A stretch of 64,000 bases of DNA, from contig JABSSW010000047.1 in NCBI GenBank assembly GCA_018902385.1, forward strand, positions 186,001 through 250,000, read 5' to 3'. Below are positions 32,801 through 60,554 of this stretch, in pieces; within the stretch, counting starts at the first letter, position 1, and each line of letters starts with the position of its first letter. The translations under genes were made by a program, and so were the position numbers. The notes beneath the pieces are model-generated. The model made no database searches, was not told the origin of the DNA, and saw nothing but the letters and a program-made list of their open reading frames with translations. The stretch is from Physcia stellaris (Eukaryota; Ascomycota; Lecanoromycetes; Caliciales; Physciaceae).

Positions 32801-33548
32801 ATCTTACATCTTTCGATCTTTGAAGACATCGAATCTTCATTTTTTTCATCTTCTTCATTTACTGCTTTACAAGTCTTGCAAATGACGACGTTTTTCATAG
32901 CGATCAATGCGTTTTTCATTGTTAACGAATATGAATTTTTCACGTCGTTGAACGCGTTGTTGTCGTCTTTTTTGAAAAAAACATGATTTTTCAATCAGAT
33001 GATCATTGCAAAAATCAATAAAATCGTCAAATCATTCGATTACGTTCTCGTTACAAAAACTTTCGAAAATCGTTTTTGAAAGTGAAAAATAAAATTACTT
33101 TACAATGCAATAAAAGAAAAAAGTTTCGCAATAAAAAAAATTCACAAATCAAATTTGAAATCGAATTCAAACGTGTTCAATGTTTTTTCAAAATCAATTT
33201 GCGACTTGACGAAAATATTAACATGTGAAATTTTATCGAAATTCTGAATGACGAACATAATCATGTTGACGATATTGAAAAATTCATGTTTATACACGTT
33301 CGAATCGTCATGATTGACGAAATTAAAAAAATATCAAATTCAAATTCGATATTTTCGTTACATTTTCAGAAATTTTCATTTTCATTCAAAAAAAATACGA
33401 TCACGATTCGAATAATTCGTTGCTCGAAATACAAAATATTTTCAATTACATAACGAAATTGAAAATTCAACGTTTGAACAATAAAATTTTCATTCAAATT
33501 TTCAATTTGAAATTACAAAATGATTTTGATTGATTCGTTAAAATTGAA

Positions 33549-33824
33549 TTGAATTTCGAATCACAAAAAATGAAACTTTTATTTTTTTGCAACAAATCAT
33601 CGAAAAAAATGTTGTTACATAATGAAAAAATTTTCATCGTGAATTGTATTTACAAAACGAATCGTTATCACATGTTTTTGATTGTATTTACAGAAATCAT
33701 TTGCTTGAACATTTTTTTTTATGTCGACATGTGTTTCATGAAGAAAAAAAAAACGAAAAATTATTGTCGATTTATTCGATTCATTAAGAAATTGTATCAA
33801 AAATTGAACATATTTTTATTTTAA
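33549..33824 (+). pseudogene. MULE transposase fragment (catalytic region)
   Basis: 91-codon open frame in mutated DNA. The segment IFIVNCIYKTNRYHMFLIVFT followed by ICLNIFFYVDMCFM and an FIKKLY helix has the order seen in MULE/FAR1-type transposases after their first catalytic Asp (normally within DCTYKTN). Here that residue is Asn. The gene is inactive and is split further downstream by the inserted LTR elements. Confidence 0.6.
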
Positions 33825-33909
33825 ATTTGATTGTCGAATGAAAAATCAAATATTTTTATTGCAATTGCTAAAAAAATTTCGTTTTCGATTTTACATTTTT
33901 TATGTTGTT

Positions 33910-34104
33910 TGTGAAATGTCATGCATTGATATGATATTAATACATAATTACACGAAAATATCGAAATGAAAAACAAATACATGAAAATTTGCAAAAACAT
34001 ATGTAAAAAATTTGATCATAAACGAATTTCGATTTTGTCATTCGATGTGATAAAATAAAAATGTTAATTTTGTCAAATGTTGAATTCGATACACGTTCGT
34101 CACA
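33910..34104. repeat. LTR of element A, left copy
   Basis: 195 bp, TGTGAAATG ... CGTCACA. Direct repeat of 51792-51985 with the duplication TTGTT just outside. Confidence 0.92.
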
Positions 34105-37100
34105 TTATTTTTCGTTTTTTTTCAGTTTCGTTTCGAAACGATTAATTATTTTTTTCATTTTTCTTATCGATCGACGATTCGAAAAATATCGTTGATTAAA
34201 ACGTGAATAATTGAACGAATCATTGCGAAAACTGAAATGATCGAAACAAATGCAACAAACGTGATCTGAAATCGAAAATCGAAAATTCGACGAAAACGAA
34301 AACAAAAACGTAAATCGAAATCATGCGAATGAAAATCTTGATGAAAATTTTGATTGCAACGAAATGTAAAAAATGTTTGATTTTTTGTATGACGAAAAGA
34401 TCGATTTTTTTGACAGAACAGAACGAATCGTTTTCGCAAACGTAAATTGTTGAAAACTTTTCGAATTCGAATTTTTCAAATTTTGATTAATCGATGCTTT
34501 CTGATTGATTGCAAACATGAAATAGAAAATTATTCGTGATTGATACATAAAAAAAAACGTGATTGACGAAATAAACGAATGTCGAAACTTTGCGAAAACG
34601 CAAAAATTTTTTGATATTGACGCAAATCAAATGATTTAAATTTTTCACGAAACATGTGAATCAAATCATCGATAATGAAATAAGATTTCTGATATTTTGA
34701 TACAAATGTTCGAAAAAATCAAATCGAAAATGTAAATGAACAATTGATTGATAGTTTTTCATCGATTTTGATATGATATTGAATGTCGCAATAAAAAATG
34801 CGAACATTTTGATGATATTGAATCAAATATCGATGTAAATGTTGCAAAGAAAATAAACGAAACAAGCGAAACAAATGAAATTGACTTTTTCATGAATTTG
34901 AATATGATTTTCGATGTAAAAGCTCGAAAATTCGAATCTTTTGATGTAATAAATGATGTATGTGAAAAATAAACGTGTAGAAAAAAAAAATCGAAATTCG
35001 TTGATAATTCAAATATTTGATTTTGATCGACGAAATTTTGTTGCGAAATGAAATTCGCAATGTTCGATTCAATTGTCTGTTACAAATTATGATTGAAACA
35101 TGTACGAAAACATATTTTTGTTGAATTTGATAAAATTTAAAATAGTGTAAAAAATCGAAAATTCGAACTTTTGAATGTAATGAAAATTTTGCAACATCAG
35201 ACGAATTATACGATAAGACGAACAATTTCGTCATGTTTGTAAAATTTTCGCAACAACGTTTAATGCATTGATATTTACGTATATGCGAAAATTGATATGT
35301 ACATTGCATTCAACAAAACATGAATGTAATGAATTTTCTGAAAAATGATCAATTCATACAATTTTTTACGAATAATTTCGACGATCATTAGTAAACAAAC
35401 AACGTGTCAACATTTTTGAAAATTTTTGAAAATTTTAAATCGATTATATCATGAAACAAACAATTTCATTGTATTAACAAAATTCGCGTAACAACGATTA
35501 ACGCATCGATATTTGAACGCATGCGATAATCGATGTGTACGATTCATTCAATAAAACGTGTATGCAAAACATTTTTCATGAAAATGTTTCGTGATTGAAT
35601 ATTCGAACATTTTATTTTTCGTTTTTTTTCAATTTCGTTTCGAAACGACAAATTCAATATTGACACGATCAATGATCGAAATGACTTGTTGATAAACGTT
35701 AATACAATTCATTTTTACAACGAAAATGATCGAAACGAATGCGAAAACAAAAAGAAAAATCGAAAAAAAACGAAAAAGTATGAAAATGAAAAAAAAAATC
35801 TCGTCAAGAAATTTCAAATGAATGCAAAAAACATCAAACATTTTGTATAATAAATTGACAAATTTTTCAAACAAGTTTTTGCTAAAAACAATGCGAATTG
35901 ATTTCGCAAACATGTGTTGTTTTGAAATTTTCGATTTTGAATTTTTCGAAATTTGACTAATTGACGATTTCTGACTGATTATAAACTTGAAATAAACGAT
36001 GATTTGCATTTGATTTGAAAATGTTCGAAAAAATACGTTGTTTTGATTCTGAAATAAATCTTTTTTTCTGAATTTCTCATTGAACATTTCGAACAAATTT
36101 TCGATAATGAGATGAGATTTGATCGAACGAAATTGACGAATATCGAAATTTTGTTGAAAAAAACGACGATTATGATGTTTTCGCAAATCGAATGATTTAA
36201 ACTTTTTCGCAAACATGCGACTCAAATTATTCGCAATCAGATAAAATTTCTGAATGTAAAATTCTTGATGTTTTCGAACTGAAATATGCGATGAAATAAA
36301 TGAAAAAATGAAAAAACAAATGACGTTTGCGCTTTTCATCGATTTTGAATTAATTTTGTATATCGTAATGAAGAAATTCGAATGCGTTGATGCGAAAACT
36401 GATTTGAAAACTATTGAAAATCAGAATTTCTGACTTTTTGATGTTGCAAAAAAAATAAGAAATTTTTGCGAAACAGACGAAACAAACGAACAAACGATTG
36501 TTGATTTCTTTGCGATTTTGCATGTAAATTCGAATGTCGAAATTCGAAAATCAAAATTTTTGACAAATTTTCGAACATGATGTTGTCGTATATGTTCGTG
36601 AAACTTGTTATTGAAATTGAAAATCTGATTGCATCGTCGACATGTTGTTGATTTTTTCGTTGATTTTGTCGTTTTTTCGATTTCGCATACGAAATTGATT
36701 GCATTGATAAAAAAATGAAAATTTTTGACGAATCGATCAATAACTTTTTCAATTTCTGTTTGTTTTTGAGTTTTTTGTTTCGTTGAAATGCACGACGAGC
36801 GAATTGTTGTTTCAATCTATGACGTAATGTTTCATGACATGAAGAAAATTCGAAATAATGTTTTTTGATTGAAAAAACATCGATTCGACAAATAAAACAA
36901 TTTCTTTTGAAAATGATAACAATTGAATTCTTTTGAGTTTCGCATATTGACTTGACTGTATCGATTGAAAAAAATGAACAGAATTTTGAAAATTTCTGAA
37001 CAGAATTTTCTTGATGTTCTGATTGAAACGTTTGAAAAAATGATGATTTCGACAAAATAATTGAACATTGAATTGATATGTTTTTCATCAATTTTGATAC

Positions 37101-37265
37101 AATTTCTGATGCATTAGACGCGAAAAACGAATTTTTCGATAAAGTGACTGTTTCGAAAATCATGATAAAGTCGAATTTCTGCTTTGATGTTGTCGAAAAA
37201 ATGTCAAATTTTTGCGAAATTTGCAAAACAAACGTTTCAATAACTGCTGATTTTTTCATCGTTTC

Positions 37266-37564
37266 TGTAAGATTCGTAAAATAATGACATCAAAAATGTA
37301 TAACAGAAAACAAAATAGTTTTTAAACTAATAATTGCAAAACTAATTGTCTTGCAAACTTTCATATATATAAACAATTAATTTGTTGAATTGTACGAATT
37401 CGCAAACTTTCGCGCATGAATATTCATGCGATATTCGAAATGTGAATTTTGTTAATTGCAAATCGAAATTGTTCGTTTCGCGATGTAATCGATTTGATGT
37501 TTCGAATCTGCTTGACGAAATTCGATTCGCATTGCTTGCAAATCTGAATTCTGAATTTCTTATA
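37266..37564 (-). repeat. LTR of old element B, 3' copy (mutated)
   Basis: 299 bp, exactly the length of the fresh LTR, reverse orientation. TGTAAG start on the + strand, end TTCTTATA. Confidence 0.88.
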
Positions 37565-38875
37565 CGCGATTTCTTTTTAACATCGAAATTTTTTGAAATG
37601 ACAATGTTCGATTCGATCAATTGTTGAAATCGTATGAATTTGTGTTTATATATTGCATTCATGAACTGTATTCATGAAACTTGAAAAATCGTTGTGATCG
37701 CGATTTTCGCATCGAATTTTATGACTTGAAAAATCACTGTGATCGTGATTTTCGCATTCGAAATATTTTATCATTTTTTTCGATTTCTAATCAATTTGCG
37801 TTAAAAATTTGAAAATCATTTTCGTGAATGATTCAAAAAAAGCATGATTTGATAATTCGACTGTTTGCTGTTTTCAAAATCGAAAGTTTGATTTCGTACA
37901 ATTCACAATTTTCGTCTGATGACTGACAATTAATTGATGACAGTGAAATTTGAATTTGAATCAATATTTTTCTTTTTATCTTTTTGCTTTCTATATCGAA
38001 ATCGATGAATTGACGAAAATGATTTGAATGCGAAAAACATCGTATGATTTTTTATTAATGAAATAATCGCGATCGCATTGAATGTATCAAATTTCGATTT
38101 TTTGCATTTCATTTTACATTCACAATATTCAACGTTCAATTAAATCGAACAACAATTTCTGAAAATGATTTTGACACGATTCAACTTTTCATGCGTCGTC
38201 AATTTTAAACAATAAACAACACAAAATTAATGACATGAAATCGTGATGTTGAATTATTGAATCAATTGTTTTTTCGAATGAATTGCATTTATAAAACACG
38301 TTCAACTTTGAACGCGTCATGATATTGAATGCAAAATGTGTTATTGAATCAAATACGTTTTCGCTGTATGATTTGATCGTTATTTGATTGTTTATTCATG
38401 ACTGTAAAACGCAAATCGCGTCACGATGTTCGCATGATTACTCGTAATCAATTGCTTTATCAAAAAAAATTGCATTTACGAAACGTTTGCACGCGTCATG
38501 ATATTAAATTGCTTTCGAATCGATTGTATCATCAAAAAGATTGTATTGTCGTGCTATTGATTTTCAAATACGTTTTCGCTGTACGATTTGTTTGAGACTT
38601 GATCACTTATTCGTGATTATAAAATGACGTCGTAATGTTGACATGACTATTCAAATCAATTGTTTTATCAATTGAATTGCATTTACAAAACGTTGCACGC
38701 GTCACGATATCGATGACTGTTCGAATCAATTGTATCGTCAAAAAGATTGCATTTACAAATCGTCGATCAATCGCGTCGCGATGTTGATTTTCAAATACGT
38801 TTTTGTTGTACAATTTGTTTTTGATCAATGATTTTTTTGTCAATGTCGATGTCTTATAAGTTGATACGTGAATTT

Positions 38876-39174
38876 TGTAAGGAACTCAGGGTCCAAGGCC
38901 TGCAGGAAGTGCGGGCCGGATCCCGACTGCCAAGGATCCAGGCCAAGCAGGTTCGAAACACCAACCCACGAGACGGCCAGTTTCACCATACTAGCCACTC
39001 GGCACCCATATCGCATATCGGCTAGATACTCATGCGCAGGGGCTCAGGGGTTCGTACCATTGAACAGACAGAACGAGTATATACTGCGAGGCCTGCAAGG
39101 CAATTAGTTCAGCAGTTATTAGTCTAGTCATGTTATTGTCTCTGCTATACATCTCTGGTGCCATGCCCCTTACA
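38876..39174 (+). repeat. 5' LTR of fresh element B
   Basis: 299 bp, starts TGTAAGGAACTC and ends CCCCTTACA, so the ends form the inverted TGTAAG/CTTACA. Preceded by AATTT. Confidence 0.95.
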
Positions 39175-39479
39175 TTCTAATAACTACAATAACCATTAGG
39201 TTAGCACCACTCGTGTATAGCTACAGTAAGCATCTACAGCGGCTGGACGTGTAATCATGACCTCAGAGTTCGATCTGGACGAGAAACTCCGCCTGAGCGA
39301 GGAATACGTTCTTCGGAAGTTGAGACGAACACCAGACCGAGAATGAAGAGTCTACAGCATACAGCTAAGTATCGCAATCCAGGCTGATTGTACTGCCCTA
39401 CTACCACGCATTGTTCAGCCTAGGGAGCGAGCACGAGCTTGAAGAGCTACAAGACAGAGCTGCAAGAGCAAGCTACCTC

Positions 39480-39845
39480 CGTACAATGACAAGCCTACAC
39501 ACGTGGCTTCAACCATTCGATCTTGCTCATGTCTCCAACGACAAGCGCCAATCGTTCCAAGCCCTCGGTTACATACAGCAGTAACGGCAGGCCAAGAACG
39601 CCAAGACGATTGGAATAGCCTGCGCAGCTTGCCGGAGCACCCATACAGAATAGACCTTATACACCCAGCACAACGAGAAGTCTACAACTACAGCGAGTAG
39701 CTTCAGTCATTCGGCCTCATTGGCATCTCCAGCGACAAGCGCCAATCGTTCCAAGTCCTCCGGCTACCCATAGCAGTAACCACAGGCCAAGAACGTCAAG
39801 ACGATTGGAAAAGCCTGCGCAGCTTGCCAGAGCACCCACGCGAAA
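39480..39845 (+). repeat. Tandem pair of ~225-bp units inside fresh element B
   Basis: Two similar units (about 39497-39625 and 39711-39840), each with the shared segments gacaagcgccaatcgttcca and agacgattgga, then agcctgcgcagcttgcc. Diverged duplicates, so the duplication predates this insertion. Confidence 0.8.
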
Positions 39846-40599
39846 TGAATCCTTCATATTCTATACTCGAGCCATCAAGGAACAACTCGAGAGCAACGGC
39901 TTCGGCCGTCCTGCTTCCCCTGCAGGATATCAAGACATTCTCAAGAATTGGTCAAACGGTGGCTTCAATAGAAGCATAGCAGGAGCACGTGGCTGGGTCT
40001 TGCCTGAATACAATGATATTCAAGGCCGAGACGGCGGTAGGAAACCCACGTTAAATAAGGCTAACAGGGAACCAGTCAAGGTCCTCGCATTGATGACGCT
40101 TCGGCTATAGCCAAATGCGGATGTGATAAGCAGGACTGTACCTGAAGTCATACAAGAGGCCCATACTGGTCAATAAGGAAGATGTTGACTCTGCAGGAGT
40201 TGACTCTGAAGACGAGCAATAATTGGCCCAATTTGCCACCTCCGGGCAAGTCCACATCGCATAGTGGAAGCCCCAATAAGCAATAAGCAATAGCAGCAAT
40301 GGACCCTACATGACGAGCTCTGCTGGCATTGCCACCAAGCGTTGTCGCAAGAAGCCGTGCATGGCTGATTGCAATAGAAAGGTCAGTCTGAAAGTGTAAT
40401 AGCTTACTGAACTCGAGCAGTTTCGCTCTAGGTTCCTAGCCACGAGGCTGCAGTCTTAAACAGCAATCAATTCAGGCCATTGACGTCTGCTTCGTACGAG
40501 TATAAATCTCGAACAAGGACAGTCGCCTATGCCTCTAGGAGTTGGTCTAAATCAGCCGATTTCGTGAAACTGCTCTGGACGTAACAGCAAGGCCAAGGT

Positions 40600-41990
40600 G
40601 AATATATCGGTCAAATCCGGTCTTGGCACCCTTCAATGCAACACCTCCTCTCCACCATAAGCCGTATCAAGCACACGGAGCAGGAAGAACCCGTCGGTTC
40701 TATTATCTATAGCACGTACAGGACCTTCGATGTATTCGTACGAGTACTCCGTAGCGAGAATACGACTCCACATGGGGCGCAGCCCGCGCAATGAGCCCGT
40801 ATTGGCCCAGCTCTACCGGAGATCGAAGGCATATGCCAGACTGTCAATAGAAAGCATACGAATCATGGACCTGACGGACATGCAATCTGCTCGCTGAGCA
40901 TGCAATAGGCCTGAAAGGGCCTGAAAGGGCATGCGTTATGTCCAGCGGGCCCGCAATGAGTCACGATATGCAATAGGCTCGAAGCTGAGCAAGAAATCAC
41001 CTCATGGCCCTATTTACTCTTTTATCGAATGATGGCTAACAGTACTGAGGATTTACTTGAACGAATATCTGAAGAACAGCCCTACCGGGTATGAAGCCGA
41101 ATAAGGAGGCGCCAATCCACCATCTCGTCAGACGAACAGCCCGGCGAAGGCCTCAATTCTATTGCTTCGCCCATAGGGGTTATTTGGTCATTACAGCCCG
41201 GCGAAGACCGCAATCTGGATAGATCATAGTCCATACAACAGGCTCCGCGTCGAGCAAGTGACGAGCACAAGCGACGTCAGAACAAGATATACCGCTCGGC
41301 GAAGGCGTCAATAATATCATTCGACTGCCCGGCGAAGGCTCACCGTCTATACGAGGTCATATGGATGCCGCATGCAACAGGCTTCGCACAGAGCAAGCAG
41401 GCTACGGCAGGCGGCAAGATATAAGGATAAAACGGCGTTAGAACAAGCTGTTGAGTACATCGTTCTACCTCTTGTCTCGCTGATTCGCCTGCACAATAGG
41501 TTCCTGCAGAACGCCTCGATCCATACGTTATAGTATATTCAGACAATACGGTCATATAGTCTATAGTATAGACTTCTTGGGCTCGTCTCCCCGATGGGTG
41601 CGCAGACACGGGAGCAGGAATAGCTTCGTCGTCTCCTCAATGGGTGTGCAGATGCAGCGAAATGGATTGCTATACGAGCAATAGCAGCAATGAGCCCGAT
41701 ATGACAGACTCTGCTGGCGTTATCATCAATTGATTTCGCGAGACGGCATGAATGCAGCAGGGTCGAGATGAATACATCGACCAAATCCGGTCTTGGCATT
41801 CTTCAATGCAAATCTCTCCGCCATAAACCGTTTCAAGCACATCGAGCCGGAAGAATCAGTTGGTTCTATCACCTATAATCAGGATACGCCCTTTGTTGTA
41901 TTCGTACGAATACCCGATAGCGAGAATACGGCTCAGCATGAAGCGCACCTTGAACAATGGGCTCGTATAGGTTTAGCTCTACTGGAGATC
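40600..41990 (+). repeat. Duplicated ~230-bp block inside fresh element B
   Basis: Copies at about 40605-40840 and 41770-42005 share tcaaatccggtcttggca, tattcgtacga and agcgagaatacg. The old mutated copy of the element has a counterpart at 47.9-48.1 kb that fits the first of the two. Confidence 0.75.
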
Positions 41991-42979
41991 ATAGCATTCT
42001 ATTCTGGCCATAGTATCATCGAAACCTCAGCAAGCGCAATAGGCGACCCGATAGAGAGGTCACTGAGGGAGAGAGTTCAGGAGCAATCGTCAGTCTGGCG
42101 TTTTGCGACGGTCTCTGCAGACGTCTCGATCAATTCGAGTCTGCTAGACGCGGAGGTCATGGTTATAATGGTCCTCCAAGTCATTTCGGTGTGACCCAAG
42201 CAGGGATGCAGAAGTCAAGCCATAGAGGAGTTATAGATCCTTCAGGAGGCTCCTGACAACTGAAGCAAGTACCTCGTGTTCGAGTGAGCTTCAAGTCAAA
42301 TCAATAGGAAGATTATGTATCCTGCGGGTGATCTTCAAAGGGGAGTTATAGATTCTTCGGAAGACTTCTGACAACGAGAAACTAGTCCTTCGGGTGATCT
42401 CGTTAAAGCAAGCGGAGAGGACAGTCCTTCGGGTGATCTCCTTGCTGCTCTCGGTTGTGCACCAGACGTGGTCGCCGATGAGTATGGTCTGGTAATGCGC
42501 GAATCCTCGAGTCTGACCAATGGGTGGCTGAGCAGGAGCATATCCACGAACCTGAAGTAAAAGAAGGCATTGACGGCGGCTCCCAAGCTCATACATAGAT
42601 AGATGACTTGGTCCGCTCATTGCCGTAAGTCCAATGTGCAGTTGTGAGGCAGGAAATAGCTACTCCTGATGGTCACGCTCGCATTGGCGATAGTAGACGA
42701 AGTTGGGAGTTTAGCATGCAATTGCTTTACGTGCCATCAAGTCTTAATAAGAGGGGCGTCGACAATAAAGACAACCCCTGGCCGAGCATCTCGATGAAGG
42801 CATCTTGGAGCCAATACGGAAGTATTGTAGGCCGAACAGAAGTTATAGAAGGGGACGTCGCCAATAAAGACAACTCCTGGCCAGGCCTCGGTGTGGAACG
42901 CACCTGGCCGAGCGCTTTGGTGAGAGGCACTTCAGAGCATATGTTGGCCTAATAAAGCAAGCGAGCGAGGTGGTCCATT

Positions 42980-43330
42980 GGACACCGAGCACGATTCGAG
43001 TATGCAAGCACGGTCGCAAATTGCGAGATACGAGTCATTGCAGGCATCTCGGCAGGACCTGAGCATGTCCATAAGAGTCGAAAACGCTACAAAGTCAGGA
43101 ACTGCGAGGTATGGACCGTTTGTCAAGGCACCTCGTCAGGACTCAAGTATACTCTTACATGTAATGCGACAAGAAGTCGGAAGCGAGATATAGGCCAATT
43201 GTCAAGGCATCTCGTCCGGACTGAAGCATACGAATAGAAGTCATATCCTAGCATGTGCGCTGTATCATAGAGTGCAAGATATAGGGCCGCTGTAGGCATC
43301 TTGACAGGACCTAGGCATGCAAGCATGGAT
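42980..43330 (+). repeat. Degenerate ~100-bp tandem repeats inside fresh element B
   Basis: Four successive units each containing gcgaga/gcgagg-tat, then tcaaggcatctcg or a variant, and ggac(c)t-rich ends. A similar periodic stretch is visible in the mutated old copy at about 45.65-45.99 kb. Confidence 0.65.
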
Positions 43331-44935
43331 CAGAGAACTGCGAGCAAGCAACTCATAAGTTATACGATAAGCTATCGTCCCAATCCAACGAGCATTGACA
43401 TGGGCTAACTTTATATGAGTTTCATAGCAAATATCCAGAGAGTAAAGCAGAACTGTGCATCCCAAGGTGGTGATCATAAAGGATCTCGCACGCGGCACAG
43501 CTTCATGGCTTTTCCTCATTATATAAGACACAATAGGCAATTGATTGTCATGACAGGGCTGCCTACAGGGCATGCATAAACAAAATAAGTCAGACTTGCA
43601 GGCAAACGTGCGAGAGTCGCAGTACTGCTAAATATCCGCACGCACAATGACGTCTTCCGTGTCTCGCTTCGGGACGAAGTTATAGCTAAATGGGGGGAGA
43701 GAGCTCCGCTAGAACAGACATCTAGAACCCATGCATCAGCTACAGGACATTGGCATTGACGAAGAAACAGATATAGCCAAGTCGCGGACAAGCCGTGCAA
43801 CAGATCCAGGTCAAGCCATATAGCAAGAACGTACCTGAAGGCCGATAGCACGGCAGATTGCGTCTCCCTGGCGATAGGATTGAGCTCCCCCTGGCGATAC
43901 GATTGAGCGATACGATTGAGCGATACGATCGAGCGATACAATTGACTCGAATAGTCTTGCATCAAGTATCATGACGCGCCCAAGCGTTCTGTAGGTGCAT
44001 TCCTTTTGATAGAGTAATTGACTCGAATAGTCATGCCAGTATCGTGGCGCGATAGGCGTCCTATAGTCATGAATAAGCAGACAAGTCTCGGACAAGCCGT
44101 ATAGCGAGAAGATATCTGAAGGCCAATAGCACGGCGAATACAGTCTTCTGATGATACAACCGACTCGAGAGCAGTTCAGTATCATAGCGCGTTCGATCCT
44201 GAGCGCGCTCAACAGGTATAATCCCTTTAACAGAGCAACTGACTTGAACAGTCATGTCAAGTATCATAGCATCACGGCCGCATGCCACCAACTCTGTGCT
44301 GCTTACTGCCTGGGGCTTACGGCGCATGGAGGGCTGAACCGTGCCAGAAACACCTCCAGAGGCTGCTGCCCGGTCTAACTGAGCGTTGAGTATCTAGGCG
44401 AGGTAGGGGTAGAAAATCGAGGAGGTTTTCGAAGCCTGGTGTATCGAATGCGGTCGCGTCTATTCGGCGCCTTTTGCGCTTAACCACCCCCCCCAAGCAA
44501 CTCATCGATTCAGCATAGGGAGTAGGGAGAATAGGAGGTAAAGAAGGACTCGGATTCGGTCTCCCTGTCACTCAATCAGCTGTTACGTCACCAGATCGGG
44601 AGCTGTGGATGGTACGAAATCAGGCTCTCGATCTTGGAAGCAGCAGGCATGGGAGCCACCAGACCATGCTTTTCCTGAGTCACCCACGAAGGTGGTTTTC
44701 AGGTTTTTAATGCAGGCTGGTATGGATCGAGTAGGATGATAGCAGGTGCGGAGGTCACGGCCACAGTGGTCCTCCAAGCCATAGCATTTCAGGGTGCGGA
44801 GGTCGCGATCACAGCGGTCCTCCAAGCCCCACCACGGATACAGCATACGGATACACAAGCCTATGGACCTCTGCCGCAGAGCATACGAAGAATACTGGTC
44901 ACCTCAAGGGGCTTCGGTGCTTAGGAGGGGGCGCG

Positions 44936-45234
44936 TGTAAGGAACTCAGGGTCCAAGGCCTGCAGGAAGTGCGGGCCGGATCCCGACTGCCAAGGATCCA
45001 GGCCAAGCAGGTTCGAAACACCAACCCACGAGACGGCCAGTTTCACCATACTAGCCACTCGGCACCCATATCGCATATCGGCTAGATACTCATGCGCAGG
45101 GGCTCAGGGGTTCGTACCATTGAACAGACAGAACGAGTATATACTGCGAGGCCTGCAAGGCAATTAGTTCAGCAGTTATTAGTCTAGTCATGTTATTGTC
45201 TCTGCTATACATCTCTGGTGCCATGCCCCTTACA
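44936..45234 (+). repeat. 3' LTR of fresh element B
   Basis: 299 bp, identical to the 5' LTR over its full length by eye, followed by the duplication AATTT. Confidence 0.95.
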
Positions 45235-47039: not shown

Positions 47040-47175
47040 ATAACGATTCATTTTGCTGCATTTGCACATTCATCGAAAAAACGACGAAATTATTTTTGTT
47101 TTCGTGTTTGCACATTCATCGAAAAGACGACGAAATTACTTTTGCTTTCGTGTTTGCACATTCATCGAAAAAACG
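47040..47175 (+). repeat. Three tandem ~48-bp units in old element B
   Basis: Unit begins tgcacattcatcgaaaa and repeats at about 47057, 47107 and 47154. The fresh element has the unmutated equivalent on the other strand at 41.57-41.66 kb with two units. Confidence 0.8.
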
Positions 47176-49340
47176 AATCTGTAAAATTTATATTATGATT
47201 CGTGAAATGTATAACTTTTGTTCGAATATATTGTAACTTATAAATTTAAACGTTTCGTCAAAAATCTATTGTGCAAACGAATCAACGAAACAAAAACAAA
47301 ATGATGTATTGAACAATCTGCTTCAACGTCGTTTTGCGTAATACTTTGTTTTGTGCGAAACATGTCGCATGTCTTAATCATATGAAAATTCGTAATTGCG
47401 AAACTCGTTGTTCGTGCGCAATCATACGATTTGTATAATACAAATTACGAATCTTCGTCGAACGATATTGATCAAACTGTAAATTGATGTCTTGTACGAA
47501 ATGACAAAACTGAAAAGATTTGATGAAACAATATTCGATGCTTGTACAGCATGTTTTCTGAATCGATTTCAAATTCGATAAAACTGTTTTTCGAATGTTT
47601 GTTCATGTATACATTCAACATGTTAATCATCTTTCGATAAAGAAAAATAAATAAAACGATGAAATGATTTCTTGTTCAATTGCAAATTTTATTGCATGCT
47701 CATGATCTATTGCATGTTCATGATTCATTGCGAATTCGTCAAACATTTCGCATGTTCGTCAAATCTGTTGCGTGTTTCATCGAACGATTTGTATGTTCGT
47801 TGAATTCAAAATTCGTCAAATTCATGATTCGAAAACTCGCGAACTTTATTGTCGATATTTTTGCATATGTTTTGATTTTCGATAGAATTGAATTTATACG
47901 AACTCATTGTTCAAATTGCATTTTATGTGAAATCGTATTTTCGTTACGATGTATTCGTACGAATACATCGAAAATTCTGTTCTGATTGTGAATAATAAAA
48001 TCGATTGATTTTTTCGATTCGATGTGCTCGATACGATTTATGATGAAGAAATTTGAATTAAAAAATGTCAAAATCGAATTTTGATCGATATATTCATTTT
48101 GATTTTGTTGCATTCAAAGCAATTTCACGAAATCGATTGATTCAAATCAACTTTTAGAAACTTTTTTTCAAAAAGCGTTTGCAATTGTTTTAATTCAAAA
48201 ATGTTACTCGTACGAAATAAACGTCATAAATTCGAATTGACTGTCGTTTAAAATTGCAGTTTCGTGATTAAAAATTTGAAGCGAAACTGTTCAAATTCAG
48301 CGAAACATCACTTTTCAAATCGATTTTTTTATTGCAATCAATCATGCAAAGTTTTTTGCGACAACGCTTGATGATAATGTCAACAAAACTCGTCGCGAAA
48401 AGCTCATTGATGTTATTGCTTATTGTTTATTGCTTATTGAGTAATTCACTATACGATTTGCTCGAAAATGATCAATTGATTCAATTGTTGAATAATTCAA
48501 TGATTGTTTTTTTTTTGATCAGTTCTTGCAAAATCAACATTTTCGTTGTTGAAACGTCGTTCATACAATGTATTTTGATTGACTTCTTGTTAATCTTATC
48601 GAACGTGAATTTCTTATCGTTTTTTTGATTTGAAATTGTATTGCATTCGTATAAATTTTCGAACGTGTGTTTTTATCAAAATCGTCATATGATTTTTGAC
48701 GAAAACATTCTGTCACGTTTTTGTTGAAATCGTCGTTTCATCAATTATTGACGATGTTGTTCGTATTCTGACTCTTGATATTTTGCAAAGAAAACAAAAC
48801 GATCGAAATCGTTATTTTCGCGTTGTTTTTCGATGATTTGAATGTAAAAAATTCATTTTGCATGAATGTTTGACAAATTGCGCAAACTTTTTCAATTGTT
48901 TTGAAATTTTTGATTTATGATTATTGTTATGAATAGTCGAAAACTTGAAACGATTGACGCATATCGATGAAAACAACACGAAATCGAATGATAGAAGACT
49001 TGATATAAAATTTTTATTGCATCGAAATAATCTGTTTTTGAAACTTTGTTTTCGAAACTTTTTCATATAGTTTTTCGAACTCGTGTTTGTTTTTTAAATT
49101 GAACAATACGTGATAATATGACAATACAATCAGTCTGAATTGCGATATTTAATTGTATGTTGTAAACTTTTCGTTTTCGATTTGTCGTTCGTTTCAATTT
49201 TTGATGTCTGACGAGCGAGTTTCTCGTTCAATTCGAATTTCGAAAACGTAACACGCGTTCAGTCGTTAAAAACACTCAATCGCTTGATTGCTAACTATAC
49301 ACGAATGATGTTAATTTGATGATTATGATAATTATTAGAA

Positions 49341-49639
49341 TGTAAAACTCGTAAAATAATGACATCAAAGATGTATAACAAAAAACAGAATAATTTCTAA
49401 ACTAATAATTGCAAAATTAATTGTCTTGCAAATCTTCATATATATAAACAATTAATCTGTTGAATTGTACGAATTCGCAAATTATCGCGCATGAATATTC
49501 ATGCGATATTCGAAATGTGAATTCTGTTAATTGCAAATCGAAACTGTTCGTTTCGCGATGTAATCGATTTGATGTTTCGAATTTGCTTGACGAAATTCGA
49601 CTCGCACTGTTTGCAAATTTGAATTTTGAATTTCTTACA
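49341..49639 (-). repeat. LTR of old element B, 5' copy (mutated)
   Basis: 299 bp partner of 37266-37564, starting TGTAAA on the + strand and ending TTCTTACA. Confidence 0.88.
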
Positions 49640-51791
49640 ATTTCGCATATTGATTTGATTGTATCGATTGAAAAAAACGAACAATTGATCGATTTTTTGA
49701 CATGTTGTTCGCGCACGTGTTCGCGAAATTTTTTCTTAAAATTGAAATTTGAATTGCAACGCATGCAGATGATTTTTGCAATTTTGATTTTCGCAAATGA
49801 AATATTTGCGAAATCGATTCGTAACGTATCAATTCATTCATTTAGCGATGTTGATTTCATGATTGTTTGTTTATCGAATCAAATATCGAAAACAAAATTT
49901 CAAAAACAAATGAACAATAACATAAACAAATTTGATTTTCGATATAAATGTTGACATTGTTGAAAATGTTGCAAAAATTTCGCGAATTCGCCGAAACGTC
50001 GATTTTCACATGTAAAAATTGAATCGAAAATTTCGATATTTTGAATTGTTGATGTTGATTTTGTTGTTTTTTCTGTTTTCAATTTTTTCGATTTGACTCG
50101 TTTAGCGTTTTTGATTGCGTTGAATTTGATTTTTTTCGCGATTTTCAAAATATTGAATTTTTGTCGTTTTCGAACAGCAAACGAAATAAATATTGCTGAT
50201 TTCTCGACGAATTCGTTCGTATATTTTTCAAGAAATTGCAAAACGAATTCGTATGTTTGTTGATTTTGAACATCACATGATGAATATTGTAAACGATGTG
50301 AATTTCAAATTTCGTAATGTAATTGACATCATTGACAACGATTCATTTTTTGTTGTTTTTGCGAAGCGAATGAAATAAACGAAATAATCGAATTGATTCA
50401 ATCTGAATTTGTTGAGTTTTTCAAGATTTGACACGTTGATTTCGATGCAAAAATTGAAAAAAACGAATTATTGTTTTGTTTGAAAAGAAATGCATTCGTC
50501 AAAATTATATCGAATTCGTGAAATTTCGCAATTTCAGTTCGTTTTCGAATTTTTCGTTTTTGTTGTTTTGAAATCATCGTTCATGCGAAAAAAAAAAAAC
50601 GATTTGTTAAGAAATGAAATACGTTTTCGAATTGATTTTTCGACGTTGAAGATGATTCGAATATTGAATACTGAAAAAAAATTTTGCAAAATTGAAATGA
50701 TGTTGTTTTTATCGCAAAAATTGAAAATAAAAATCAATTTGCTAAACAAACAAATGTGATTTCAGAATATTTTCAAACAAGAAAGATGATGTGAATATCG
50801 AATTCAAACGTTGATCAAGATTTGAACAATCTTTTTGATCGATACTGAAATTATCGTTGAAATCAGAAAATATGATCGATCGATAAAAAAAACAAATATG
50901 TTTTGAAAATGTTTTCGAAAAAGATAAATGATTTCGATATTGAGATAACGTGAATATTGAAAATCTCTAAACTCGAAATGATATCGACTTTTTGACGTGA
51001 TATCGAGTTCATCGAATGAATGAAAGAAAAACACGAATTTAATAAATCGATGAATATGTTTTTGAGCTGATTTTCAAACAAAGAAAATAGTTTCGATGTT
51101 GATGTGTTGAATCGAAATATGTGAACTTTTTGACTTGATATCTGAGTCGATTTCGAAATTTTCTGATTGAGTATTGAAATTATCGAGCAGATAGAAGAGA
51201 ACGATCGAGTTGCTGATAAAATAAATAAAATTCTGAAAAATTCTCGAAAAAGATAGATGATTCGAGTTCGACTGAAAAGATGAAAGTTTTATCGATAATT
51301 TCTGATCTTTGATCAGATATTTTCGAAAATTTCTGACATGATGTTTTCGTGATGTAGAGAATTTCGTTGACTTGATGATTTAGATTTGATTTGTTGATAT
51401 GTAATGATTATGAAATCAATGACGAAAAAGACGTCGTTGTTTTCGCTACTGTCAATGATCATAAATTTCGACGTTTTATTCAGTTCGTCGCTTCGATCGA
51501 TAACAAAACAATTTCGTTTTCGCTAAAACATCGAAATGACTTTTTCGTGAAAATTCACACTCGAAATTGTTGTTTTCTTTATGAGTGATTTGCGTGAAAT
51601 AAAATTTCGTTGCTTTCATTCAAATCGTTTAGATTTTTGATTTCACGTGAGCAGAATTACGTCGTTCTCGCTAGCACGTCTAGAATTTAATGAGTGACGT
51701 TTTAGATTTTCGCGTTTGTTTGAGATTTTGTTTATTGAATAAATTGTCGTATTTCGAACAACTTGAAAAAATTAAAATGATTTCGATATAA

Positions 51792-51985
51792 TGTGAAATG
51801 TCATGCATTGATATGATATTAATACATAATTACACGAAAATATCGAAATGAAAAACAAATACATGAAAATTTGCAAAAACATATGTAAAAAATTTGATCA
51901 TAAACGAATTTCGATTCTGTCATTCGATGTGATAAGATAAAAATGTTAATTTTGTCAGATGTTGAATTCGATGCACGCTCGTCAC
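51792..51985. repeat. LTR of element A, right copy
   Basis: 194 bp partner of the left LTR, same orientation, followed by TTGTT. Confidence 0.92.
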
Positions 51986-52326
51986 ATTGTTAACATTTAA
52001 AACAAAACGTATTAATCAATTGTCACAAGCATTTTCGAAATCGTACGAATTTCAAAAAATTGTAACATCAATTTTTCGACGATAAAAAGATCGAATTATC
52101 AATCATCGAACATTTTCAACAATTATTGTATGCAACAACAAAAAAAAAGATGAAAAAAACTTGATAAAAAATTCAACGCATTTACGAATCAATCAACGTC
52201 GCAATATTTCGATATTTGAACACGAAAATTTTATCGAAAAAACATAAATGATGTAAAACATGAATCGACGAATATTTTCATTTTGACAATCACATCATTT
52301 CTCGTGAAAAAAACAATAACGTTATT

Positions 52327-52992
52327 TTGAAAACAACATTACGTAATTTTCAAAACGATTTTGATATCGTTGTTAAACGAATTTTTGATATTTGCGATCG
52401 TCAACGATTTGAATACAATCGTGTTTTAATTTACGTTCGTCAGAATTTTTCTGATCGTTTCAATAAAATCATATTTCGAAATTTTCGAATTTTGATATCA
52501 TCATTTGCACTCATTAAAATCAAAAAACAATACGATATATTGTTGAATGTTCGCGATAACAACGTCGAATTGTTTTTTTGTTCAAAACGATTTCAAAACA
52601 TCATGAATTTGCTTTGCGTTCACATCATTCAAAAACGTATAATCGATGTTAACAATGAAAAAATTTTAAAATTCAACGACGTTAATTTTCATTGACGACT
52701 TTACAAATCGATACGTCATTTCGTTGAATCAATAAAATTCGTGAAAATTGAAATTACAATGAAAAAAATGTTTACACATGATTCATTACTCGATATACAG
52801 AATTCGAAAAAAATCAAAAACAAAAATCGTTCAAAACATGCATTTAATCGATCGAAAACAATTATTGATCAAAATCGTTTTGAACAACGTTTTCGAACGA
52901 TGAAACAATTTACACAACGAAATTTTTCGATTTTCGAATATGCGCAATTCATTGATTTCACAATTGACGAAAATATCATGAATCGTGCTTGA
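52327..52992 (+). pseudogene. MULE transposase C-terminal fragment with SWIM-like zinc finger
   Basis: Two adjacent open frames (52327-52695 and 52741-52992). The first has ELFFCSKRFQNIMNLLCVHI, which fits the SWIM zinc-finger spacing CxC-n-CxH with its second Cys replaced by Lys or lost. The second is Lys/Arg/Asn rich, like the tail of these proteins. The tail resumes beyond the Gypsy insertion at about 59703-59916, which is Asn/Ser/Thr rich. Mutated and inactive. Confidence 0.55.
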
Positions 52993-53210
52993 ATAAACGT
53001 ATTATTGACTAGTTAGACGAAGACAATAAGTCTGCAGAAGCAAGTAGATACAAAATGATGAAATTGTAAACAATGTGCGAGCGTCAAGTCTCAAATCACG
53101 CTAATCTCGTCAGAAAATTAAAGCATAATTCGATTCAGACATATTTGTTTAATCATTTATCATATCAATTATCTATTTGTCAAATCTATTTGTCAAACAT
53201 GTTCGTAACA
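52974..53210 (-). repeat. 3' LTR of Gypsy element C
   Basis: 237 bp, TATCATGAATCG ... TCGTAACA on the + strand, with GAAAA immediately before. Confidence 0.9.
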
Positions 53211-56200
53211 TTATTTCTTTTTTTTCGCGAGCGTCGTTTCGACGATTCGTTGTTGTTTCGAAATTTGAAAACGTTGTTGAGAATTTTGTGAAAAATTTTG
53301 TTAATCAATTCGTATGACGACAGAATTCAAAAATTTCACGATCATCATTTTTCATTTTTCAGTGTTTTATTGTCATCTCAACGTTCGATAAAATTTGACG
53401 ACAGTTTCTGAAAATGTTTTTGACACGATTCAACTTTTTATGCGATGTAAGTTCTGATTGTAAATAACATCGAAATGATAATAAAAACTGAATTGTTGAA
53501 TAAAGATCGTGAAATCAAAAACGAATGAATGAACATTGAATTCGTGATTTCAGATGTTAATTGAAAATAGTTTCGATTAATGTCAACATGACGATTTTTT
53601 TTCGAAAACGACGACGATTCGTTGAGAAATCTGAATCGTTGACGACGATTTGAAATATTGAAATCAACGTTTTGAACGATTTTGAATTTGTTGTCGTGAA
53701 ATGATTACGATGAAAATCGTTTATCATATCGCGAACATTATCGAATTTTTCGTTGTCGATGTAATATCACGTTCGATCATGAAATCAGTTCGATCAATTG
53801 ACACGATATTGAAAACGATTGTAATGATATCGAAATTTCAAAATATCGTTCATTTTTCATTCGAAATTTTCGTTGACTATGACGAAATCAAACGATTCAT
53901 TGATTTGATTTTCGAATGAATCACGAAAATTTTTGCGCAAAAATCAACAATGAAACACATCGTAAATACGCATGATTTCAAACAATTCGAGTCGATAAAA
54001 ATTGCTCATACGTTGTAATATTTTGTAAAGATTTAGTTTTTTGTCATCGAATTTGTCAAACGATTTGATCGTTTTGATGTTTCGTCGATCGAGAAAAACG
54101 AAATTTTTTTCGACATAATTTACGATTTTTCGATGTTTGTTGATTTGAATTGTCATACGTTTTTGAATCATTTTTGCATAATTTCGTACGTAATTGAAAA
54201 TATTTTGTATCGTGTCGATGATATTTTTTGCTTTGACGATCAAAAGTCGTTTTTTCGTTGTAACATACGAAATAAAATTTGATGAGAAACTCATACGAAA
54301 ATGAAATTTCTTATTGATGAAAAATGATAATAATTTTGTTGTTGCAAATATCGCGTTGTTGTTTGCAAATTCGATCATGAACAATCAAACGTTTCAATCG
54401 TTTTGTATGTAATTGCAATATTGTCGCAATTGTTTTTCGATATTTTGATTGATTTTTTCGATTTGTTCATCGATTTCTGAATGAAAAACGATGAAAAATT
54501 TACATTTGATGTCGAGAATTTTGCAAAATGCTTGTCAAACGAATGATATGAATTGAGATTTTCGATTTGACGTTATAGAAAAAAATAATTCATGCGTACG
54601 AAACACGTAATTGATAAATATTTTGATCGTGATTTTCGCATTTGTATTTTCATCGTTGACGATGCAAAACACGTAATGACGTTTTTTATTAAATTTGTCG
54701 ATTATCGTGCAAATGACGTTATGATCGTGAGCGTCGAACAATTCGATAATAAAATTCATGAATATGTCGATTCAACGTTGCAAAGAAATGATCAAAAAAA
54801 TGAATAAATCATTTTTTCGATTTTTGAAAATTTTCGTACGTTGACATTCATGACAATTGCGTACGTATCGACGAACGAATTTGCGCATGTTGAATCAATA
54901 ATAATCGCGACGTATAAAATTTTTTATACGATTGAAATTTGAATGTTTCGAAATCGAAAATTCATGAATTTCTTTGAAAAAATCAACGAGTAAAAAAACG
55001 TCGACAAGCATTCATAGTCGATTATTTCGATATAAAACATCGTTTTTTTCATTGCAGTTTCGTAAGTCGACGTCGTTCATTGATGTGAAATTTTGTTCGA
55101 TGATTTCACGATATGTCGTGCAATCATCGTCAATTTTATTGACAATCAAAATTCGTTCGTAAATAGATTCGTCAGATTTTATCGCGTGAATTTCGAGTCG
55201 TTTTGAAATGAACAATATTTGTTCTCGATATTGATGTCGCTCATCAATTTCGTCTTTGAATCGAAAATCAAACATACGAATCAAAACATTTGTTTTAACG
55301 TTTTGAGTTTCGAATTGAAACTGAATGACAATGTTGAATTTCGAAAAAATTTCTGTTCAACGAATTTGACGAAAAGTGAATTTTTTTGACGTTATGAAAA
55401 TTTTCAATCTTTTGTGATCGATGAAGATTTTGATCGATTTTTCAATGTTTTCGAATTCAAAACGTCAATGTTCTAAACAGCGAATAATGACTAGTAACTT
55501 TTTGTCATAAATTTCGTAATTGCATTCGATTGAAATCATGTTGCGACTGTAAAAAGCAACGAGATGCAACACTTTTTCGTCGTCATATTGAGATAATATT
55601 TTTGCATTGACGTAATCAAAAAAGTCGATTTTCAAAATGACTTGTTTTGTTCGATCGTAATGTCGTAATATGAGAATTTTCGTCATCGTTTTCTTGAAAA
55701 GATTGAAGACTTTTTCGACTTTTTCAGTTCATTCGAAATTCACAAATTTCTTGATCATTCGAGTGAAAATTCGAACTTTTTTCGAAAAGTCACGAATGAA
55801 TCGTCTGTAGAAATTGACGAAATTCACAAAAATCTGTATTTTTTTCAAATTCGTAAAACGTTTTCAATTGACAATGATTTTTATTTTTTTCGAATTTATG
55901 CGAAAATCATTTATCGATAATATGACGTTCAAAAATGTCATTTTTTTTTTGAAAAACTCGCACTTCTCAATATTCACTTGTAATTCGATTTTTTTGAATC
56001 TTTTCAACATTTTACGAACGTGAACGATGTGCTTTTTTTTGAATTTGCTGTAAATGAGAATATCATTTAAATAGATTTGACAAAAATCGTTCAAAAAGTT
56101 GAATAACAAATCGTTCATGTAATGTTGTCAATTCGCGAATTCGTTGATCAATTCGAAAAATAAAACTCGATATTTGTATGATTTCATGAAAATAACGAAC

Positions 56201-59200
56201 GTGATGAGTTTTTCACTTTTTTCATTCATTCGAAATTTGTTGAAAATCGATATAATATTCAGCTTGATCAGATATTTGCAATCTTGCATTTTGATTAGAA
56301 TTTTTTCGATCAAAAGAATGAAATATCGATTGCGTTTCGTGATGTGATTAAATCGTCGATAATTCACACACAAACGTAATTGATCGTTCGATTTGATTGC
56401 AAATAAAACGAACGAAACGTATGCAATTTGATTGAATACGATAAAATTCTTTTGAAAATTATTTTTCAGATATTTTTTGAGTTTTTGAAATTTGAGTTCG
56501 AACAAAAAATATATTTTGTTTCGAGACAATGAATTGCTATCGCTTAGAAATTCGATTTTGTGATCGTAAAATCGATGCGATAACAATTCAATTGTTTTTT
56601 GAAAATCGAATATTTTTGACAAATATCTGAAATACTTGAATATTTTTTTCATTATGCGTTCAAAAATCGATTTGATTTGTTCATGTTTCAAAATTTCTTT
56701 GATCATGACAGCAATTTTCAACGATTCAGAATTTGTTCGCAATGTTTTGAGCGCGAAATCGATTTGATTGATCGTAATGAAAAAATATTGTATTTTTTGC
56801 TTTTTATTTTTGAAATCGACGAATAAACAGAAAAAAATTGCATCAATCATCGCGATATTCATTGAATCATTTGAGTTCAATTTCGATAATGAAAGAATTT
56901 CGAATTGTTGTTTTTTGATTTTTCAACGTTTGTTGCGTTGTCTTTTCAAATTTTTTTTTTTGATGAATGTCGTTTTCGTAATTGTTGTGATATCAATTTT
57001 TGAATCATTTGATTCGATAATTGACGATTCGTTATCGTCATCGACGTTCGAATGAATTGAACATTCGAAACATTTCGAATCGAATACATCTGACTCGTTC
57101 TCAACTGTGAGAAATAAAAACGTGATTTTGAAACGAAATAAAATGATATATCGAGATTTTATTATCGTTATATGTTTCGAATTGTTTTTTTGCGATAACA
57201 CGATATCACGACGTCAATTAAATACATTTCATCGACGATTTGATTTGAGAGTTTTCAAACGTCGAATTTGAACAATTTGATTGAATATATTGTCATGATG
57301 ATTGCATTTGAACGATTTGAAAATCAATTTATCGTAAATCATGTTCAATATGATTTTATGTTTGTTCATTCACGATTTTTTTAAAATTATCGAATGATTA
57401 TTCAAATCGATGATTAACAAAAAAGCGATCAATTCGAAATGCAATTTTATCGTTAATTTAGAATATATGACGTGAATTATTGAAAAAATTTGACGATCGT
57501 CGAATTCAATCAATGATTTCGATTTTAATAAAAATACGAATTTCATGTTCAACATGTTGCATACAAATTGCGCGATTTTTTTATCAATGAATGCATAATC
57601 AATTGCATCAATGTTTATTAAAGTTTCTAGTTTATGTCTATTATCGTTGAATGATAACGTACAATTGATGATTAAAAATCGCTTGATGAAAAAATCAAAC
57701 AAATCATCGTTGTGAATAAAGAAAATTTTTAAACATTCATCAATCGCGTTTTTGATATGAATTGTTAATTTTTCGAATCAAAATCATTTGACTCGACGAC
57801 TAAATTCATGTACGATATTTGCATTTTGTGTCAATGACGTTTTTGATGTTTGTGATCGTTCGAACATTTTTTTCAAACGTGATTCAATTCGTCACATGTG
57901 AAACATTTGTTCGTGACGATCAGTTTGTCGATCATCGAATCACGAATCTTGATTTCAACGTTGAAATGTAAATGAACTGTAAATTTCACGAAAAAAATCG
58001 AGATGACAAATTTCGTAAAAAGCATCGAAATCGAGACGACAAAAATTGATTTGAATTGAAACAATTCAAAACGTTGTTGACGTGTCGCGATTTTTTTTTT
58101 TCGAAAATTCGATTGTCGATTGTATATTTGTTGCAAAATGATTCGAATTTCATCGAGCGTGATAAATTCACGTGAATATACATTCATCGTTTTTTTCAAA
58201 TTTCAGAAAATTTTGTTCATCAATTTCTCGATTTTGATGATTTCGTTATAGTCAATTGAATTGCTAAAACGAAGAAAAATGAAATAAAAAAACTGAAAAT
58301 TTTGAGTATTCATGATCAATGCTCGAAATTGATTACGCATATTGCGTTTGAAATCAAAATTTTCGTAAATAATGTTCAAGAATTTCAACATCATATGTCA
58401 GATTTTGAAATGATTCATATCAATATCACGAATCGATTGTATGTGATCATCGACATCATTTTCAATTCAATCAATCACAATAGTGATCGCGATCATGTTC
58501 GTGTCGTAATGATCAACGTTGATCGTCATTTTATCGTGTATTTTTGTTTTTCAAACACGTCAAATGAATTTTACTTCATCGATGAATTTAAAAAAATCTG
58601 AATGTGTTTTGAAACGTCGTTTGTTTTTTTGAGAAAAATTAATTACGTTGATTTCATCGTCGTTTTTTTCATCGTCGACGTCAAAATTTCGTGCACGATC
58701 GCGAGTTTTGATCAACAAAACGTCGTGATTTTTTTTCAAAAAAATGTAATTTTTTTGCTTGATCAGAAGTAAATCACGTTGTTTTTCGTATTCGTTTTTC
58801 AAAATGTTCAATTTTCGACGAATTTCATTTAATTCGACATTCGTATTGATCAGTTCGTCACGATCGACGTTGACAATATTGTACAAGTTTTGATATTGAG
58901 TCAAAACGTTCAAATAATTGTCACGATCGATGCGTAATCGATCAAATTTCTTTAAAAAATCGACGATTTTATGATTGATTCATCACTTCAACTGATCGAT
59001 GATGACGATATTCAGAAAATGAATGATTTTTTCATTTTTCATTTTTATGAAATCGATCGTTGATACAAATCGACGACGTTTGAATTGATCAACGAAATTC
59101 TCGTCAGAAAAATTGTCGTTAATTTCATGCAACATACGATTCACGTTGACGCGTAACGTTTTGAAACGTTGTTTCATCGAAATAGAAAATTCGAAAAAAG

Positions 59201-59460
59201 TTGTTTCGTGATGACTTCGAGCCATAACTGAAAATGAAAAATTGAAGATGATAAAAAAAAAAAAAAAAAAAATCGAATCAATTTTCGTCTTTTATCGTCG
59301 AAAATTTCGTCGTTGTCTCGTCAGAAAAATTTTCAAATCATTTGTTTGATCAGCAAAATTTTTCGTCGTTTGTCTCGTCAAAAGAATTTGATCGATTTGA
59401 AATTTTATTTTTGAACGTTCGCGTATCTCGACGAGCGATAAAAATGAAAATTTATTGTAA

Positions 59461-59697
59461 TATCATGAATCGTGCTTGAATAAACGTATTATTGATTAGC
59501 TAAACGAAAACAATAAGTTTGCAAAAACAAATAGATACAAAATGATGAAATTGTAAACAATGTGCGAACGTCAAATTTCAAATCACGTTAATTTCGTCAG
59601 AAAATTAAAACATAATTCGATTCAGACATATTTGTCTAATCATTTATCATATCAACTATTTATTTGTCAGATTTATCTGTCAGACATGCTCGTAACA
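59461..59697 (-). repeat. 5' LTR of Gypsy element C
   Basis: 237 bp partner of 52974-53210, followed by GAAAA. Confidence 0.9.
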
Positions 59698-60159
59698 GAA
59701 AACGAAATTCAAATGTTTTTTAATCAATCGTTTTCTAATCAATACACGATTATGTCATTTTTTTCAAATCAATTTTACAACATGTTTACAACTCAATATT
59801 CGAACGAATTCACAAATTCAACGATGATTTCGACGACGTTTTCAACAATCGATCGCAAACGAACAAATAACAACAACATTATGAATAATATCAAACGAAC
59901 AAAGAAAACGAACTAAAAACTGATATGAAAAGCGAAAAATCGACGAAAAGAAAAAAATGTGCAAATCGTCGATTTGCGATCAAAAAAATTTCTGATTGAT
60001 CGAACAAAATCAAATAAATCAAATGAACGAAAATTTTCATACAAAATTCGATGACGTCACGATCAAATGTATGTAAAAATTAAAACATCAATGTTTGTTT
60101 GCAAAATGATCGAAAAACGAACATTTGATTTTCATACATTGATTCGAACATATCGAATT

Positions 60160-60554
60160 TTAAAAATATTCAAAGTTTTGTCTTATCGAAAACGCGATTC
60201 GAAAAATCTTGACACGTGCAAATACGAATCGCACGTGCGAATAATGATTTTCTTTGTCAAAACAAATATTTTTGTTTCAAAATATGAATTTCAATACATA
60301 TGTTGCAATTCTGATAACATAACGCTTTAAATGTATGAAAATTGACATATTGTTGATCGAATTATAATTCATTGAAAACACAACGTTCGACGGTTCGGGA
60401 AGAAATTTGAGATACAACAATTTAAGCTCATTTAGCGTTGTGTAGTGCAACTTGGTCGCAGAATTCCCTAACAAAAAGCGGGAATTACTGGGGAGGGGGA
60501 AAGTCAAAATTTTTCGATGCCAAGGATTCTACAGCTTTCTGCACCCGAGTGTAC
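60160..60554. repeat. Right inverted end of the MULE, subterminal part mutated
   Basis: The outer 65 bp (60490-60554) are unmutated. The subterminal copy at 60160-60260 is AT-shifted relative to the left end. Spacing between the two blocks is about 230 bp here against about 20 bp on the left, so the two ends are not the same length. Confidence 0.75.

Follow-up and report, generated by a model that had tools for sequence, protein, structure and literature searches.

A RIP-like decay that removes CpC and most CpT from a nest of transposons in Physcia stellaris and spares CpA and CpG

Among the described systems, repeat-induced point mutation (RIP) in Neurospora crassa is RID-dependent and changes C:G to T:A on both strands of repeats, densely enough to leave AT-rich relics; its order of targets is given as CpA>CpT>CpG>CpC (PMC5496416). 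RIP of Trichoderma reesei likewise changes C to T in duplicated DNA, and there CpA and CpG are mutated first and CpC last (PMC5496416). We describe here a nest of long terminal repeat (LTR) elements in a 64,000-nucleotide stretch of Physcia stellaris DNA (assembly GCA_018902385.1, contig JABSSW010000047.1, positions 186,001 to 250,000; hereafter the window, in whose own numbering all coordinates are given) that resembles these relics in the direction, density and strand symmetry of the change. In contrast to N. crassa RIP, CpC is lost ahead of CpT, CpA and CpG stand at background, TpA is not enriched, and the stops in a decayed pol frame are TGA only.

A further group of RIP systems carries a CpT signature (Magnaporthe, Botrytis, Sclerotinia; Colletotrichum truncatum; Anisogramma; N. 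crassa Tad1). CpT is targeted there as it is in our window and dominates some of the alignments (also PMC2621366, PMC7882544), but there it is hit alongside CpA, with TpA/ApT raised where a value is given (PMC4352252, PMC6180176, PMC10998396), whereas here CpA is spared and CpC is dominant. Depletion of CpC/GpG is reported from the repeats of Stagonospora nodorum (PMC2621366) and double changes of CpC to TpT from Monilinia (PMC8959702), yet in both the classical CpA to TpA change is described as dominant, and neither is CpC-first. In Monacrosporium haptotylum CpA is reported as not decreased in repeats and another dinucleotide preference was proposed, with a TpA/ApT of 1.12 (PMC3828140) as against 0.26-0.41 in ten 1-kb windows here. 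The Dim2-dependent mitotic mutation in Zymoseptoria tritici is also a repeat-linked C-to-T change and is tied to a DNA methyltransferase, although CpA is mutated and methylation is reported as CG>CA>CC and nearly absent at CT (PMC8016269); the transposon-linked C-to-T changes of Microbotryum, Tuber and the rusts have CpG as their target (PMC4352252), a dinucleotide that is kept here. No CpC-first RIP is found among the literature matches listed; a prior description is possible, and priority is not proved.

The decay fills two AT-rich stretches, at 32800..38875 (GC 0.22-0.30 in the 500-bp windows of 33001-38500) and 45235..60360 (GC 0.26-0.31 in those of 45501-60000), on either side of an island near 50% GC formed by one LTR element, element A. 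The density of CC/GG, which is 124/kb in the genes to the left, 155/kb in those to the right and 112/kb in the island, is down to 0-0.2/kb in all six decayed parts compared, while CT/AG falls from 127-142/kb in genes and island to 12-37/kb. CC/GG is absent from 32800-33149 and from all 11 windows of the left stretch, and 37 of the 40 500-bp windows starting at 33001-38001 and 45501-59501 are free of it, the other three holding one each; between 46000 and 60150 only three occur, at 46584, 49991 and 59222, and these may be later mutations. The absolute densities of CA/TG (127-139 per kb decayed, 130-137 in genes and element A), CG (49-64 and 51-57) and TpA (45-54 and 40-57) are neither down nor up. 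Expressed as odds ratios, positions 46000-60400 give CpC 0.010, CpT/ApG 0.329, CpA 1.27, CpG 2.98 and TpA 0.39, against 0.98, 1.08, 1.07, 0.88 and 0.72 in 1-32696. TCA and TCG rise to 1.88 and 2.06 times their flank density, as the change of CC to TC predicts, TGG drops from 18.8/kb in the flanks to 0.02/kb in decayed DNA, and TGA climbs from 18.6 to 34.9/kb.

An earlier, sequence-only reading of this stretch had claimed a loss of CpC and CpT with CpA and CpG kept across 32830-60400. The contrast is borne out and proves stronger than was claimed, and CpA/TpG depletion, named as what would speak against it, is not seen in the odds ratios. The interval encloses, at 38876-45234, an unaffected element of 50% GC, and the decay itself has its left limit at ~32800 and its right limit at 60360-60400. 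The same reading held that TpA is not enriched and that a TpA/ApT index would probably miss the region; both hold, since none of 38 half-overlapping 1-kb windows shows the rise of TpA/ApT and fall of (CpA+TpG)/(ApC+GpT) set by either of two published threshold pairs.

Which cytosines changed can be read from two copies of one family. Element A (38876..45234; + by the strand of its alignment to element B, not that of a known transcript) was used as the unmutated reference for B (37266..49639, - strand), an older, decayed copy that is inverted relative to A and split by it. Both strands taken together, C has become T at 158 of 159 CpC and 300 of 379 CpT sites, and at 27/330 CpA and 24/286 CpG, when counting is limited to columns whose next base is shared and whose local identity is >=85% (C-to-T and G-to-A scored as matches); without these filters the counts are CpC 473/538, CpT 521/682, CpA 118/667 and CpG 125/576. 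In the reverse direction (C in B, T in A) the background amounts to 18/321 at CpA and 20/282 at CpG, and because it is so similar the losses at CpA and CpG are not significantly raised (Fisher p 0.22 and 0.64); CpA is thus not the preferred target that it is in classical RIP. BLAST segments, some of them overlapping, serve as an independent check (CpC 177/178, CpT 374/474, CpA 37/437, CpG 31/359), which a second MAFFT setting does not, its counts being identical to those of the first. Unfiltered, 554 C>T and 698 G>A changes stand against 108 T>C and 125 A>G, so the C:G to T:A change of RIP is found on both strands.

The alignment also identifies the base that is read. CCA has become TCA at 73 of 96 aligned sites and CCG has become TCG at 57 of 67, from which it follows that the 3' neighbour of the target is the one that counts. 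Sorted by the 5' base, the loss of CpT is 75-83% throughout; sorted by the +2 base, it is 68-86% and lowest at CTT (65/95; no formal test). In a strand-run test the retained CpT of the A/B alignment did not cluster into tracts (p for adjacent concordance 0.86 and 0.47). The scarcity of CpT/ApG in the sequence-only reading is therefore real but partial, ~79% of CpT being lost in the copy alignment against >99% of CpC. That reading had also compared the inverted repeats that frame the nest, which it called MULE ends. With the left copy as reference, their 143 bp hold C-to-T changes at 12/12 CpC, 8/11 CpT, 4/14 CpA and 2/21 CpG, together with 15 other mismatches; the CpC/CpT bias stands, and CpA and CpG, described as retained, are not wholly unchanged. 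Its broader proposal, a cytosine-mutating process with a CpC (CpY) preference, is supported by the odds ratios and by the copy alignments, where the changes lie at CpC and CpT and not at CpA.

The same rule suffices to reproduce the composition of the block. Simulation from A with CpC 0.9999, CpT 0.8, CpA 0 and CpG 0 gives a GC of 0.283 (0.282 observed) and a dinucleotide divergence of 0.002, where unmutated A scores 0.39. This was the best rule from a grid of CpA 0-0.2, CpG 0-0.2, CpT 0.6-0.9 and CpC 0.99 or 0.9999, and its CpT rate agrees with the 300/379 of the A/B alignment. A Neurospora-like rule diverges by 0.44 and a CpA+CpG rule by 0.78; CpC-only, CpA-type, CpG-type and context-free models were rejected for their worse fit, five other rules being ~90 to 390 times worse, with a single random run per model and assumed rates for the alternative rules.

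The nesting was resolved through LTRs and 5-bp target duplications. Element A has 299-bp LTRs that are 100% identical, TG..CA ends, a perfect AATTT duplication, 50% GC and no mutation, and is apparently a recent insertion. It lies in B (LTRs 37266-37564 and 49341-49639), and B lies in C, a decayed LTR element (33910..51986, strand not assigned; LTRs 33910-34104 and 51792-51986; duplication TTGTT). Alongside is D, decayed and Ty3/gypsy-like with pol domains (52974..59697, -; LTRs 52974-53210 and 59461-59697; duplication GAAAA), and inverted repeats frame all of these: an unmutated left outer one (32615..32800, +), a mutated right inner one (60113..60262, -), which is the partner of ~32702-32844, and an unmutated right outer one (60490..60554, -) with 94% identity to 32615-32679. 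The two sides of the duplication of B, GTTTC and ATTTC, differ only by G -> A at an ApG; the corresponding G on the opposite side, preceded by C, is retained.

Over 731 bp, the two LTRs of B, of C and of D are separated by 45 CpT-type transitions, one transition with a mixed C/T next base, two CpA-type transitions and one transversion, so that non-CpY changes number just 3; CpT is kept in both LTRs at 10 sites, CpA differs at 2/107 and CpG at 0/66. At 37358 the LTRs of B read AACTTT and AATCTT, and since CTT in one and TCT in the other would have arisen from a single ancestral CCT, CC was lost here in situ, independently in each LTR, after B inserted. CpC has taken ~6.8 hits/site, as 3 are left of ~2628 CC/GG expected by extrapolation from flank density, against ~0.002 other substitutions/site/LTR lineage, a figure resting on 3 changes; the ratio is ~3300, and the mutator is fast relative to other substitutions. 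The pol frame of D (53947..57777, -; 1277 codons) carries 15 in-frame stops, all of them TGA, and zero TAA, TAG or TGG, where the other five frames of the same stretch hold 19-35 TAA and 2-6 TAG each, and over the 1277 codons there is no sign of a frame break. Taken in larger pieces with X at the stops, it scores above the Pfam cut-offs for the reverse transcriptase, RNase H and integrase H2C2 families; when the integrase piece is aligned to Ty3, 3 of its 5 stops face Trp and 2 Tyr.

The decay sits in LTR elements inside the inverted-repeat frame, and the genes of the window are spared. On the left the loss of CC/GG is abrupt; in 32800-32899 CC/GG is zero and CT/AG has normal density (12 in 100 bp), falling beyond ~32899, which fits CpC being hit before CpT, although a zone CT-rich from the outset is also possible. 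The decay extends ~1.1 kb beyond C, ~0.7 kb beyond D and through ~1 kb between C and D. On either side it stays within the outer inverted repeats (32615-32800; 60360-60554) and ends ~150-195 bp short of their tips.

In this window, then, the change is from C to T, is set by the 3' base, affects both strands alike, is restricted to the nest, and in part removed CC after insertion. A slow decay would need no active mutator: a DIM-2-like enzyme would methylate CpC and CpT in heterochromatin, and 5-methylcytosine would then deaminate spontaneously. N. crassa DIM-2 is indeed reported to prefer CpT (PMC13297926, PMC8016269). Spreading of heterochromatin could moreover account for the decayed sequence between elements. 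Ordinary 5-methylcytosine deamination, however, raises rates by tens of times, far from the ~3300-fold excess of CpC hits extrapolated above over a denominator of 3 changes, and the pol frame of D, with no sign of a break, also speaks against it; we regard slow decay as unlikely. Decay by CpG methylation was rejected, because CpG is not lost.

Near-total C-to-T change of CpC on both strands would also be chemically compatible with a deaminase that is not a methyltransferase (AID/APOBEC-, Tad- or DddA-like), has a 3'-pyrimidine preference and edits both strands of repeats. Known deaminases read the 5' neighbour (APOBEC3G CC, AID WRC, DddA TC), and published abstracts also name the CC and TC contexts. 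Editing of the APOBEC3G type, on the 3' C of CC, would yield CTA from CCA, but CTA is not among the six commonest outcomes and CpT loss is irrespective of the 5' base. Because it is the 3' base that matters, a RIP variant, the other option of the sequence-only reading, fits better, and a deaminase appears quite improbable. Explanations that dispense with a mutator altogether can be given hardly any credence. The dipyrimidine contexts look superficially like ultraviolet damage, whose signature includes loss of TpC, but TCA and TCG have risen here; editing of retroelement cDNA might be suggested by a block made mostly of LTR elements, but both strands are changed, and changes also fall in the sequence between elements and on one base of a target duplication, beyond the element itself. 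Foreign DNA naturally low in CpC is disfavoured because an unmutated member of the same family sits in the same place.

We therefore favour, as the probable explanation, a RIP-like defence with an inverted context order that hypermutated freshly inserted transposons. Such a defence, of the kind found in filamentous ascomycetes, would act on newly inserted elements after repeats had been recognised by homology, presumably before meiosis, and its enzyme would read the base 3' of the target C and convert C to T on both strands, taking CpC to completion and CpT to ~80% and leaving CpA and CpG alone. The likely candidate is a C5-cytosine methyltransferase of the RID/Masc1 or DIM-2 type with an altered target preference; a pyrimidine preference in a DIM-2- or RID-type enzyme is plausible given the CpT preference reported for N. 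crassa DIM-2. The process works like RIP, yet it falls outside classical RIP, which is defined by a preference for CpA and a gain of TpA.

Several observations weigh against this explanation. All findings come from one 64-kb window. Element A is unmutated despite its two identical 299-bp LTRs, and the process is therefore perhaps inactive now or in need of longer repeats. The decayed DNA between elements may or may not be repeated, or may be spill-over, so that homology dependence is not secured. CpT loss differs by element strand in the A/B alignment (138/157 and 162/222), which is unexplained; CpA loss is slightly, though not significantly, over background and reaches 8/49 at ACA. Finally, one stop in the RNase H piece aligns to Phe and not Trp, in a weak match to Ty3.

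Other features of the window bear less directly on the mutator. Element A has no open reading frame (ORF) above 163 aa, the single ORF scanned from it has no Pfam match, and it looks non-autonomous. Within decayed element B, 47061-47198 holds a 46-bp unit in tandem copies. Two similar cysteine/histidine-rich motifs, CRRCNQIFNFNNKFHEHIRQHH (36424-36816, -) and CMRCNSNFNFKKKFREHVREQH (49420-49833, -), flank the insertion of B, and their coding lies mostly or wholly in element C; the ORF at 49420-49833, the only one of the two scanned, matches zf-C2H2_12 weakly (E 0.071). When ten single open ORFs were compared with Pfam, a Tf2-1-like SH3 domain (2.7e-5, under Pfam's own cut-off) was the one match below 0.001, and an Rfam search returned nothing at gathering scores. 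The flanking genes are ~50% GC and retain CC/GG, and 8 of the 10 flank ORFs scanned match Pfam, among them RTA1, the CAF-1 subunit A dimerisation domain, NmrA, DUF1688 and nitronate monooxygenase, a set that would suit a filamentous ascomycete.

In 2025 a survey covering 1,239 fungal genomes concluded that a preference for CpA is common to RIP-like defences (PMC12543289), and the block described here contradicts that as a rule. The usual RIP indices call this heavily mutated region clean, which makes a case for including (CpC+GpG)/(TpC+GpA), a ratio already defined in RIPCAL (PMC2621366), in RIP surveys. As CAA, CAG and CGA are spared and the only stops are TGA, in the one pol frame examined, this decay is mostly missense and leaves frames open. 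It also offers a system in which the basis of dinucleotide choice by RID/DIM-2-type enzymes can be tested. On balance we lean towards a fungal lineage with a repeat-targeted mutator complementary to RIP, one that would take CpC fully, CpT mostly and CpA and CpG not at all through a re-tuned methyltransferase, and that may have been overlooked so far, since surveys seek TpA gain and CpA loss and since alignments of decayed copies would display just CpT once CpC is saturated.

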